Shown here: piece after piece, positions 50,910 through 59,818 of the stretch | How the letters are laid out: the number at the start of each line of letters is the position of its first letter | Numbering within the stretch: position 1 is the first letter of the stretch | Source of the DNA: Chitinophaga pinensis | Lineage (GTDB): Bacteria; Bacteroidota; Bacteroidia; NS11-12g; UBA9320 | NCBI GenBank assembly: GCA_945907065.1 | Contig: CAMDSC010000014.1 | Span: 1-60,603 of the forward strand | Length of the DNA: 60,603 nt | Direction of reading: 5' to 3' | Position numbers and translations under genes: made by a program | The notes under the pieces: model-generated | Seen by the model: only the letters and a program-made list of their open reading frames with translations | What the model was told of the DNA's origin: nothing | Database searches by the model: none

Positions 50910-53798
50910 TTATTTCAACGCTTCATAAATCACATCCATAATTTCTGTTCTTACGTTTTTTGTTATTAACGTTCGATTTTCGGCAGATGGATTAATACGA
51001 TTAGAAAGGAAAACAAACACAAGACCATTATCCGGATCAACCCAAATACAAGTGCCGGTAAAACCTGTATGGCCAAAACAATTATTGCTAGCAAAATGTG
51101 ATGCAGGGCTGGTTTTTCCAGGTGTATTTTCAGGCTTATCAAATCCTAACCCACGGCGACTGTCTTTACTTTGACGTTCTGTAAATTCAATAACTGTGCT
51201 TTGTTTTAAAAACCGTTTGCCGTTGTAAAATCCGTAATTCGCAAGCATTTGACCAATCTCTGCCAATTCATAAGCATTGCTAAACAAACCTGCGTGGCCA
51301 CTAACTCCTCCCAATAAGGCCGCCGAAGGATCATGAACATACCCTTGTAAAACGCCTTTGCGAAAATCTGGGTCTTTTTCGGTAGGAACAATTATGTTTT
51401 TAGCAAACTTTTGGCGTGGGTTAAAGGTCATAATATCTAAGCCCATGGGTTTGTAAAACGTTTCATCCATATAGGTGGCAAAATCCTTGTTCGTAACTCG
51501 TTCAATCATTATTCGCAGCATTATCATCCCCAAATCGCTGTAAACGTATTTGCTTTTAGTGCCCAATGGCGATGCGGCTATTTGCGCCAGCATCAGTTTT
51601 TGATAAAACTTATTTACATACAACCCTTCGTTTATTTCAAAACAAAATTTATCGGTTTTTACGGTTGATAAAACACTGTCGCGCAATTCGGGATTATCTT
51701 TAAACGTGAGATAAAAAGGTATAAAATCTTTAAGTCCAGCTTCATGAACCAATATTTGACGGATAGTAATATCTTGCTTATTGGTTTCTTTAAGCTCGGG
51801 CAAATAGTTGGCTAAAGTATCATCGAGATTTAGTTTTTTATCATCGTAAAGCTTCATTATAGCCAATGTGGTTGAGGCTATTTTGGTTACCGAAGCTAAA
51901 TCATATAATTGGTCATTTTCTACCTTTACTTTTTTATCATAAGTTTGATATCCGAAGGATTCATTATAAATAATCTGCCCATGCTGAGCCACTAAAACCT
52001 GACAACCAGGAGTAGCTTTGCTGTCAATAGCATTTTTAACAATATCATTAATTTTTAAAAGCTTTTTATAGGTTTTAGTAACGTAATTTAGAGGTTGCAA
52101 AACATCCGCCTTTTCAATGGTTTTACCGTAATTCATAGGATATTCAGTTCCTACAGAAACGCTAAGTTTGGCATCGGTTCGTTTCATGCCCCAAAGGGTT
52201 TTTGCAGCGGCTTGATAATAAGGCTCATCATCTCCAAAAGCATAAACTGTAGTTTTTAGCTCTGGAAAATTGACCATAGAATATGGGTTTCCAAAACAGA
52301 CAACAGTTACTTTGGTTTTCTCCTTAAGTTGGCTTACAAGGCTGCATAAATCCGAGGTGATTCCATAATTGTCTTTTGGATATTTATTAATGTGATGAAC
52401 GGCTACAATCACCATATCATACACTTCCAATTTAGCAACTATATTGGTGCAGTATACCACTCCAAATAATTTGTCAACCGAGTAAATATCGCATCCTCCC
52501 AACTCTTTCATTTTATTTTCAAAACCAGTTCGTCCATTTCCACCCAAGGCTATTACTGCCATTTTTTTAAAGCGTTTTGAAAATAAAGGAATATAACTTG
52601 AATCATCCTTGGCAACACAAATTTCACTTTCTACCAATTTATTATATAGACTTAGGGCATCGGTATTGTTTAAATCTTTTACTAAATCGGAATAATATTG
52701 ATTAGTCATTACATCCAAACCTGCAAATTCTTTGGCCCTTAATATTTTTTTGACTTTAGCATCTAAATCGGCCATACTAAATCTTCCATCCATTAAGGCG
52801 GTCTTAATTGTATCAATAGCTATAGGAACATTAGCAGGACAAAGCAGGATATCATTTCCGGCCAACAAAGCTTTTAATTCTATAGTCCCTTTTGGAAAAT
52901 ATTTAGCTGCTCCTTGCATATCCAAAGCGTCGGTAAATGAAAGCCCTTTAAAACCCAATTCATTTTTTAATAACCCATTTATAGCTTTAGGCGAAAGTGA
53001 TATTGGTAAATTCGTTGTAGTATCAATAGCAGGCATGTAAACGTGCGCTGTCATTATGCTCATCACACCACTATCAATTAGGTATTTGAAAGGTTTCAAT
53101 TCTATTGAATCCAGTCGTTGGCGGTTGTGTGAAATTATTGGTAAATCTTTATGCGAATCGGTCTTTGTATCGCCATGTCCAGGAAAATGCTTGGCACAAG
53201 CAATAATACCTTCATCCTGCATTCCTTTGGCATATTTCCAACCTTTGCGGGCTACATTCATTGGGTCTTCGCCAAAAGAGCGAAAATTTATTACAGGATT
53301 ATCAGGGTTATTGTTTACATCAATTACCGGAGCAAAATTCACATGAATTCCTAGGCGTTTACATTGCTTTCCAATATCGCGACCCATTTTATAAATTAGG
53401 GATTCATCTTGTATTCCACCTAAACCTATTTGATATGGATACTGAATTGTGTTGTCTAATCGCATGGACACACCCCACTCTCCATCAATAGCTACCATCA
53501 AAGGTACATTAGCCATGGACTGATATTTTTGACCTAAAAGAAGTAGATTTTGAGGATCGGTTTTAAAAAATATTATTCCTCCCACTTTATATTTAGACAC
53601 CAAAGTATCCACCTCATCCAGATGATTTCGCCCTTTCGACGGCCTCACTTCCACCATCATAAGTTGCGCTATTTTCTCCTCAAGACCCAGTCGTGCAAAG
53701 GTTTCATTTACCCACGTGTCTTTCTGAATACCTTTTAAAGGTCTGTTTTCAAAAAAAGAAATAACACAAAAAAGTGTAAGTAATAATCCCCAACGCAT
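50910..53798 (-). CDS. Exported GH3 beta-N-acetylglucosaminidase fused to a beta-lactamase-family serine hydrolase
   Basis: 962 residues with a signal peptide (MRWGLLLTLFCVISFFENRP). The GH3 barrel (about 30-370) has NFAPVIDVNNN, KHFPGHGDTKTDSH (the D214/H216 dyad of NagZ-type enzymes as acid/base) and D290 in TDALDM as nucleophile. A second alpha/beta domain follows (about 390-575), then an S12-type hydrolase (about 600-960) with SVTK, YSDLG and GHTGFTGTCIW. The fusion is known in Bacteroidota and is thought to act on peptidoglycan muropeptides. The YxN tyrosine motif reads YSD rather than YSN. Confidence 0.92.
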   Translation of the reverse strand: MRWGLLLTLFCVISFFENRPLKGIQKDTWVNETFARLGLEEKIAQLMMVEVRPSKGRNHLDEVDTLVSKYKVGGIIFFKTDPQNLLLLGQKYQSMANVPLMVAIDGEWGVSMRLDNTIQYPYQIGLGGIQDESLIYKMGRDIGKQCKRLGIHVNFAPVIDVNNNPDNPVINFRSFGEDPMNVARKGWKYAKGMQDEGIIACAKHFPGHGDTKTDSHKDLPIISHNRQRLDSIELKPFKYLIDSGVMSIMTAHVYMPAIDTTTNLPISLSPKAINGLLKNELGFKGLSFTDALDMQGAAKYFPKGTIELKALLAGNDILLCPANVPIAIDTIKTALMDGRFSMADLDAKVKKILRAKEFAGLDVMTNQYYSDLVKDLNNTDALSLYNKLVESEICVAKDDSSYIPLFSKRFKKMAVIALGGNGRTGFENKMKELGGCDIYSVDKLFGVVYCTNIVAKLEVYDMVIVAVHHINKYPKDNYGITSDLCSLVSQLKEKTKVTVVCFGNPYSMVNFPELKTTVYAFGDDEPYYQAAAKTLWGMKRTDAKLSVSVGTEYPMNYGKTIEKADVLQPLNYVTKTYKKLLKINDIVKNAIDSKATPGCQVLVAQHGQIIYNESFGYQTYDKKVKVENDQLYDLASVTKIASTTLAIMKLYDDKKLNLDDTLANYLPELKETNKQDITIRQILVHEAGLKDFIPFYLTFKDNPELRDSVLSTVKTDKFCFEINEGLYVNKFYQKLMLAQIAASPLGTKSKYVYSDLGMIMLRIMIERVTNKDFATYMDETFYKPMGLDIMTFNPRQKFAKNIIVPTEKDPDFRKGVLQGYVHDPSAALLGGVSGHAGLFSNAYELAEIGQMLANYGFYNGKRFLKQSTVIEFTERQSKDSRRGLGFDKPENTPGKTSPASHFASNNCFGHTGFTGTCIWVDPDNGLVFVFLSNRINPSAENRTLITKNVRTEIMDVIYEALK

Positions 53799-58021: not shown

Positions 58022-58966
58022 TTAATTCGGCAATCTAGCTTTGTTCTTACGCAGGTTATTGTACATATCATACATTATTTGCATATGAGGTGCAGTAAGT
58101 ACTGCTAAGCCTAAAATCACATAACCCATAAAAGCTATATTGTTTACAAACATAAACCCAGTAAACCCGAATATTCCAATACCGCTTATAGCTAAAGTAC
58201 TATAAATCAGTATTTGCTTTACTATGATAAATTGTGAAATTTGTTTATCTTCCAATAAATAGATAATAATACTATTGAGGGATAAAACAGAATGCCAAAC
58301 CACAAAATAAAAAGTAAAACCTACTAGTAAAGGCAAACTGTATAGAATTAAAAGAAGGAAAGCAAAGTGAATTAGAAAATAACCTTTTTCATTTACGGTG
58401 GTATTTTTATTTTTTAAAAAATAAACAAAACTGGTAGCAAAAAACAAAATAACAGATGCTGAAATAGTTTTAAAACGGTTAAGTTCTATCCAAGCCATAA
58501 GAAATTTATTTTCATTGCCAGAATAAAATAGGTGAATAAATGGTTTTACTTCATCAAAATGATGAAGTAGTAAAACACTTAAAATTACCAACCCATAGGT
58601 AATTACAAAAAGCTTACCTGTGAATGTATCTGTTTTAAATTGGTTTAAATCTGTTTCTCCAAAATGGTAGGCAGAAAATAAAATAAATAGGAAACTTCCT
58701 ATTAATGGAAAAAACCAAATTATGGCAGCAAATAAACACAGCCTGCCCAGGTAAACTGCAAAAAACCTGAGATTTGAAAACTCTTTTTTATTAGAATCTG
58801 CATGACGGCTTGCCACAAGCAAATCAGCTGCACCATGCGGCACACCTATTAGAATAATACCGCTTAAAAAAATAATAAATTGAGCTTCTGTATTAATTGA
58901 ATTTACAAATTGCTGAAAAACAATCAGGATAAAACCCAATAACAACAATAGATTTCTCATAGTCAT
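58022..58966 (-). CDS. blh: Brp/Blh family beta-carotene 15,15'-dioxygenase
   Basis: 314 residues with about eight membrane helices. Conserved iron-binding-type residues stand in their usual contexts: H44 in GVPHGAADLL, H101 in SAYHFGETDL, H225 in VVWHSVLSL and H294 in TAPHMQIMYDM. The enzyme splits beta-carotene into two retinal molecules, here for the rhodopsin gene upstream (68 nt between genes). A terminator-like hairpin sits between them, so expression should be lower than that of the rhodopsin. Carotenoid synthesis genes (crt) are not in the window. Confidence 0.94.
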   Translation of the reverse strand: MTMRNLLLLLGFILIVFQQFVNSINTEAQFIIFLSGIILIGVPHGAADLLVASRHADSNKKEFSNLRFFAVYLGRLCLFAAIIWFFPLIGSFLFILFSAYHFGETDLNQFKTDTFTGKLFVITYGLVILSVLLLHHFDEVKPFIHLFYSGNENKFLMAWIELNRFKTISASVILFFATSFVYFLKNKNTTVNEKGYFLIHFAFLLLILYSLPLLVGFTFYFVVWHSVLSLNSIIIYLLEDKQISQFIIVKQILIYSTLAISGIGIFGFTGFMFVNNIAFMGYVILGLAVLTAPHMQIMYDMYNNLRKNKARLPN

Positions 58967-59034: not shown

Positions 59035-59772
59035 CTAAGCTGTTGCTGTTGATTTATCTGATTGAGCTAAAGCATAAATTACTAAGCCGAAACCAATTTT
59101 ATTTATGGCGTCACCAATATTGTAAACAATATCCATTGAAAGACCTTGCCAAATTTTCATTCCAAACAAACCACCTTCGGTACCAGCTATGTAACCAATA
59201 GGATAAATAGCCCATCCAACCAATACAAACCAACCAAGTGTTTTAACTGCTTTGGCTACTGCTGGGCCAGCATTGTTTGCAAGCTTTGCAATGTCACCAA
59301 ACCATACCAAGTAAACAATATAAAAATAAGCCATTCCGCTAATTAAACCCCAAATCCAACTTTGTGTTGCATTTCCATAAATAGCTTCTCCAATATAACC
59401 TGTAACTAACATAACTATGGATGCAAAAATTAGTTGCCATAGCAAAGCTATCTTAGCACCTGCCTTTTTTGTAATCAAATAAAATTCAACACACATTAAT
59501 GGCACAGTAAGAATCCAGTCTACGTAACGGAAAAACACAGGTGATTCTCCTGTTTCTAGGTTGTAATCGCGCATGTAATAATAATGCACAGCAGCAATGA
59601 AGGTAATTAGTCCTGATACAAGAATGGAAGTTCTCCATTTCTTTTCAACGTTGGACAATTCAAAGAAAAAGAACACAGACGCGGCCATCATGGCCATGCA
59701 GCCTACAAAAAATGTAAAGGCTACATAATTTGTTTTTGCAATTGGTAAAATTGTAAGTAAATTTTGATACAT
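59035..59772 (-). CDS. Proton-pumping microbial rhodopsin (proteorhodopsin type)
   Basis: 245 residues with seven helices. Helix C reads RYVDWILTVPLMCVEFY: D85 (proton acceptor), T89 and E96 (donor) form the DTE set of proton pumps; R82 and H63 (AAVHYYYMRDY) are the other hallmarks. K225 in GDAINKIGFG holds retinal. M93 sits at the spectral-tuning position, which suggests green absorption. Helix E reads SWIWGLISGMAYFY, with G142 where bacteriorhodopsin has W138 and xanthorhodopsin has G156, the place of the carotenoid fenestration. The usual N-terminal signal is absent. blh follows. Confidence 0.96.
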   Translation of the reverse strand: MYQNLLTILPIAKTNYVAFTFFVGCMAMMAASVFFFFELSNVEKKWRTSILVSGLITFIAAVHYYYMRDYNLETGESPVFFRYVDWILTVPLMCVEFYLITKKAGAKIALLWQLIFASIVMLVTGYIGEAIYGNATQSWIWGLISGMAYFYIVYLVWFGDIAKLANNAGPAVAKAVKTLGWFVLVGWAIYPIGYIAGTEGGLFGMKIWQGLSMDIVYNIGDAINKIGFGLVIYALAQSDKSTATA

Positions 59773-59810: not shown

Positions 59811-59818
59811 CAAAAGTA
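59811..59818 (-). promoter_or_regulatory. Candidate -7 box (TACTTTTG) for the rhodopsin gene
   Basis: On the minus strand TACTTTTG matches TAnnTTTG and lies 38 nt before the ATG, giving a leader of about 30 nt. No -33 TTG at standard spacing. The region upstream is extremely AT-rich. Confidence 0.5.

Follow-up and report, generated by a model that had tools for sequence, protein, structure and literature searches.

The 60,603-nucleotide stretch of DNA analysed here (the window; contig CAMDSC010000014.1 of assembly GCA_945907065.1, deposited as Chitinophaga pinensis) encodes a rhodopsin that is very probably a standard Bacteroidota proteorhodopsin, an outward light-driven H+ pump to which a single 3-hydroxylated carotenoid, zeaxanthin, is most likely bound on the side facing the lipid. 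An initial annotation had proposed a dual-chromophore pump on the basis of a glycine at the site through which a carotenoid could approach retinal. With this glycine, intact pump residues and genes for CrtZ and a lycopene cyclase in the same genome, the proposal is well supported, though not proven: the lining of the predicted pocket is like that of the zeaxanthin-bound rhodopsin NM-R1, the residue set in transmembrane helix 6 (TM6) is that of EinA29G6, and the genome contains a gene cluster for zeaxanthin. The elements concerned are the following:

59035..59772, minus strand: rhodopsin open reading frame, 245 amino acids (Pfam PF01036, Bac_rhodopsin, 149 bits; residues checked in the translation)
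59347..59349, minus strand: codon of the fenestration glycine G142 (coordinates computed from the start of the reading frame at 59772)
59176..59193, minus strand: codons of Y194-I195-A196-G197-T198-E199 in TM6, counterparts of Kin4B8 Y204, A205, S208 and Y209 (alignment; PMC12308411)

The gene had been placed at the correct coordinates and its strand, previously left unstated, is minus. In the translation, D85, T89, M93, E96, G142 and K225 were all found at those numbers, confirming that the pump residues D85, T89, E96 and K225 are intact. With the DTE motif (Asp/Thr/Glu) in helix C and the retinal lysine K225 in helix G, the protein is assigned as an outward DTE-type proton pump of the proteorhodopsin clade; M93 occupies its colour-tuning site. 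The closest sequence in the PDB is NM-R1 (320 bits), with Kin4B8 at 84 bits and xanthorhodopsin (XR) at 82 bits, and the window rhodopsin appears to lie outside the xanthorhodopsin clade proper (XR, GR, Kin4B8). Its nearest relatives in named genomes, with 75-90% identity, come from metagenome-assembled genomes and isolates of lakes and ponds (Chitinophagaceae, Sediminibacterium, Flavihumibacter, Cnuella), suggesting a freshwater Chitinophagales-type host.

Fenestration and carotenoid pocket

Helix E aligned without gaps in MAFFT, and HMMER alignments agreed in placing G142 on G156 of XR (reference sequence 100% identical to 3ddl), G153 of Kin4B8 and G142 of NM-R1, and opposite F152 of green proteorhodopsin. 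The correspondence to XR and green proteorhodopsin claimed at the outset was therefore borne out, and a small residue, rather than Phe, Trp or Tyr, stands at this position. The helix E motif W-G-x-[LIF]-S is common to the fenestrated proteins of this alignment, and in Kin4B8 a bulkier residue in place of the fenestration glycine blocks zeaxanthin binding (PMC12308411).

When the window rhodopsin was modelled together with 32 relatives as input, AlphaFold2 gave a model with a pLDDT of 86 and a pTM of 0.83, for which the top PDB match by both methods was 9jou, 'zeaxanthin-bound light-driven proton pumping rhodopsin, NM-R1' (Z 31.0, rmsd 1.7 Å, 66-67% identity). In the alignment, 14 of the 16 positions of pocket and retinal site were the same as in NM-R1 (139, 141, 142, 145, 146, 149, 150, 153, 178, 181, 187, 190, 194 and 198), and 195 and 199 were different. 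The initial annotation had considered that W141 or Y149 might fill the opening; zeaxanthin-bound 9jou combines G142 with both of these residues as well, so neither prevents binding there. In TM6 of Kin4B8, residues Y204, A205, S208 and Y209 line the carotenoid ring pocket and the exchange S208A almost abolishes binding (PMC12308411). The window rhodopsin has both the conserved tyrosine (Y194 for Kin4B8 Y204) and the polar residue (T198 for Kin4B8 S208) associated with 3-hydroxy xanthophylls. From sequence, model and characterized analogues, carotenoid binding by the window rhodopsin is judged to be likely.

In the mechanism that we propose, retinal would be formed from beta-carotene via the adjacent blh gene, and zeaxanthin would be formed from beta-carotene via the CrtZ of a separate crtI-crtB-crtZ-crtYcd cluster. 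As there is no side chain at G142, helix E would be open and one carotenoid ring could reach the retinal ring, while the carotenoid hydroxyl would be held by Y194 of TM6 and the polar pair T198/E199. The bound carotenoid would then hand blue-green excitation to retinal and/or accelerate the photocycle. The present data show the sequence and its alignment, the genes beside the rhodopsin and those for carotenoids, the fold, and a lining almost the same as in a zeaxanthin-bound homologue. We infer binding in the window rhodopsin, the identity of the carotenoid, the transfer of energy and a benefit to the cell alike, and the sequence does not decide between energy transfer and a faster photocycle as the role of the carotenoid. 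Conceivably, though this is rather unlikely, zeaxanthin is bound but transfers little energy, acting chiefly by tuning or accelerating the photocycle or by stabilising the protein. Binding by Kin4B8 is indeed separable from transfer, and salinixanthin binds yet transfers poorly; however, KR1 is reported to bind astaxanthin with energy transfer, and the observations for the carotenoids tested were otherwise similar to those on Kin4B8 (PMC12308411).

Carotenoid genes of the host genome

A single phytoene synthase is encoded in the genome to which the window belongs (G000; 2.7 Mb, 99.9% complete). The search for crtZ and other xanthophyll genes that the initial annotation had called for revealed both crtZ and a lycopene cyclase in a crtI-crtB-crtZ-crtYcd cluster:

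L084, G000:C2: carotenoid cluster in the order crtI, crtB, 167-amino-acid protein, 154-amino-acid CrtZ, 231-amino-acid CarR/crtYcd-type lycopene cyclase
L084:9751-10254 (G000:C2): 167-amino-acid protein of unknown family, between crtB and crtZ
L084:10303-10767 (G000:C2): CrtZ, named from its His motifs, the cluster and its similarity to a Pantoea protein

CrtZ was found by reading the neighbourhood of crtB. It contains four His motifs (HKFVMH, HRDHH, HDIFIH and HKIHH) and shares about 41% identity with a hydroxylase from a Pantoea plasmid, whose gene neighbours crtB, crtY and a phytoene desaturase gene. At E 0.001 there was no Pfam or NCBIfam match for CrtZ, so profile-based annotation would miss it. 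PF04116 was rejected as a crtZ finder, its sole match in the genome being a 272-amino-acid protein of the fatty-acid-hydroxylase family that is not CrtZ, and a search with PF04116 alone would falsely suggest that crtZ is absent.

A carotenoid 1,2-hydratase (cruF, PF04240) gave no match in the genome. Among four matches to the fatty-acid-desaturase family (L171-L174) no CrtW-type ketolase was obvious; L172 (L084:5999-7075), L173 and L174 resemble lipid desaturases or the alkane-hydroxylase type, and L171 was judged on the length of its 361-amino-acid frame only. Because crtI-crtB-crtZ-crtYcd is present, cruF was not found and no ketolase was obvious, zeaxanthin would be expected as the main xanthophyll of the host, which, at gene level only, has what is needed for 3-hydroxylated xanthophylls. 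We consider it quite improbable that the antenna is another carotenoid, such as a keto- or myxol-type pigment. The desaturase scored above the cut-off for NF058655 CrtID, 'bifunctional phytoene desaturase/3,4-desaturase', which would suit 3,4-didehydro products, but the results for the 1,2-hydratase and for CrtW among the desaturase-family matches read speak against such pigments, and CrtZ and CrtYcd jointly yield zeaxanthin.

Distribution of the glycine and gene neighbourhood

In an alignment of relatives with 83 rows, in which the window was counted twice, the glycine at position 142, Y194 and T198 were invariant in the window and throughout its aligned relatives, which represent 80 other genome loci. 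Such conservation throughout the clade excludes a chance occurrence of the glycine, but does not single out the window protein. In a table based on a phylum sample of 392 genomes, glycine was present in each of the 57 DTE rows, among them the window itself, the XR reference and 12 rows belonging to the family of the window, and in all 20 NDQ sodium-pump-type sequences, mostly from genomes without detected crtZ (L099, L101, L102, L105, L106, L108-L111, L113, L116-L120, L129, L132, L136, L140, L143). Likewise, 20 of the DTE sequences with glycine stem from genomes without detected crtZ. The contrast drawn in the initial annotation with a 'plain proteorhodopsin' therefore fails, since the residue is shared by every sequence of proteorhodopsin, xanthorhodopsin or sodium-pump type that was aligned from the Bacteroidota sample. 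Being fixed in all of these, the glycine has little value as a marker on its own; sodium pumps and genomes without detected crtZ have it too, so it cannot by itself prove an antenna and must be read alongside the pair of TM6 residues and the pigment genes. As judged from the alignments, the fenestration glycine is a feature of the clade that would permit an antenna, and no sign of an unusual protein.

Six rhodopsins of the phylum sample fell below the alignment threshold, namely L103 and five of archaeal type (L100, L128, L163, L164, L167). Read by eye, the archaeal-type rhodopsins have Trp (L128) or Phe (L163, L164, L167) at the glycine position, the residue in L100 being bulky or unclear. 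In L159, the glycine scored by the script falls in a gap, and the residue is Phe by eye.

Since all relatives, the NDQ sodium pumps and DTE sequences from genomes without detected crtZ carry the glycine, the residue persists without this antenna, as would be the case for a plain single-chromophore proteorhodopsin that inherited the glycine within its clade and whose pocket is filled with lipid in this cell. The products of CrtZ also act as membrane antioxidants. Nevertheless, this explanation seems unlikely, given a lining nearly identical to that of zeaxanthin-bound NM-R1, polar residues T198/E199 like those of xanthophyll binders that have been tested, and the zeaxanthin pathway in the same genome.

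Several observations weigh against a zeaxanthin-carrying pump. Every member of the clade has the glycine, which is hence not discriminating, the crt cluster does not adjoin the rhodopsin gene, and E199 matches neither the Pro of NM-R1 nor the Tyr of Kin4B8. Also, crtZ is not linked to rhodopsin in the class Bacteroidia, where it was found in 16/16 genomes with rhodopsin and in 76/89 genomes without (Fisher p = 0.21). Within the window's family the corresponding values are 12/12 and 8/11 (p = 0.09). As crtZ is near-universal in the class and common in the family, its presence was rejected as independent support. Only with very low probability would the acidic E199, beside the ring pocket, make binding or energy transfer in this freshwater-type lineage pH-dependent or tie it to a distinct xanthophyll, unlike in NM-R1 or Kin4B8.

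The GTDB family of the window has two rhodopsin types, even within one genus (g4). Type 1, to which the window rhodopsin belongs, has GYI(L/A)GT in TM6 (L086, L087, L090, L091, L093-L096), and type 2 has WGxxST in helix E together with GYMCMPGGWL in TM6 (L088, L089, L092). In type 2 a Pro occupies the position at which xanthophyll binders have Ser or Thr, and its carotenoid preference may differ from that of the window type. In two other Bacteroidia rhodopsins, L169 (G377) and L170 (G271), helix C carries DTK and DTQ, respectively, instead of DTE.

Near the rhodopsin gene, the following features were recognized:

58022..58966, minus strand: blh, beta-carotene 15,15'-dioxygenase, 314 amino acids (TIGR03753, 148.8 bits versus a cut-off of 95.25; PF15461)
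59811..59818, minus strand: TACTTTTG, putative -7 promoter element (fits the Bacteroidota consensus TAnnTTTG, read by eye)

A gene for retinal supply thus adjoins the rhodopsin gene, with a TIGR03753 score above the cut-off: blh lies on the same strand, separated from it by 68 bp on the downstream side, an order also found in the closest relatives (L003-L011), and is followed by genes for a sigma factor and feoB. Upstream of the rhodopsin gene, no long open reading frame was found up to the contig end at 60603. The element TACTTTTG, some 40 bases ahead of the start codon, is a weak candidate for the -7 box of the rhodopsin promoter; no clear -33 box accompanies it in the upstream sequence read by eye. 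In the rhodopsin flanks of the 80 relatives, crtI-crtB-crtYcd was found beside rhodopsin in L082 only, and crtZ in none. Elsewhere in the window (50910-53798, minus strand), a 962-amino-acid protein fuses a beta-N-acetylhexosaminidase-like part to a part with PBP4B/beta-lactamase fold.

Comparison with known systems

Carotenoid-binding rhodopsins are already established for Bacteroidota. Marine representatives were published in 2023-2025 (Chazan 2023; Fujiwara 2025; both as cited in PMC12308411 and PMC13043013), and a 2026 paper reports the fenestration glycine for its Bacteroidota proteorhodopsins. A dual-chromophore pump is likely here but ordinary for this group, the new element being a freshwater-type member.

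Green proteorhodopsin from gammaproteobacteria shares the pump residues and the overall family with the window rhodopsin, but its site is closed by F152. Xanthorhodopsin from Salinibacter (3ddl) has the glycine (G156) and the helix E motif WGxxS, but binds the keto-carotenoid salinixanthin and its TM6 has a hydrophobic M/A pair in place of the T/E of the window rhodopsin. Zeaxanthin-bound Kin4B8 (8i2z) has the fenestration glycine and the conserved Tyr too, and its residue 208 is likewise polar; however, it is only 27-28% identical, belongs to the xanthorhodopsin clade and has Tyr209 in place of Glu. The TM6 pocket set Y194/I195/T198/E199 is the same as that of EinA29G6 (Y/I/T/E) and near that of the flavobacterial proteorhodopsin KR1 (Y/M/T/D), both of which bound lutein and zeaxanthin when tested (PMC12308411).

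NM-R1 (9jou/9jov) is the most similar, with 69% identity (154/222, MAFFT), a fold match of 1.7 Å, and G142, W141, Y149, Y194, T198 and the DTE motif in common; the window rhodopsin differs by I195 for Met, E199 for Pro and a longer D-E loop. NM-R1 stems from the marine flavobacterium Nonlabens marinus, whereas the window rhodopsin is, by its closest relatives, a freshwater-type Chitinophagales protein. The window rhodopsin would therefore extend the carotenoid-assisted proton pump from marine flavobacterial rhodopsins and Kin4B8 to a freshwater Chitinophagales-type bacterium.
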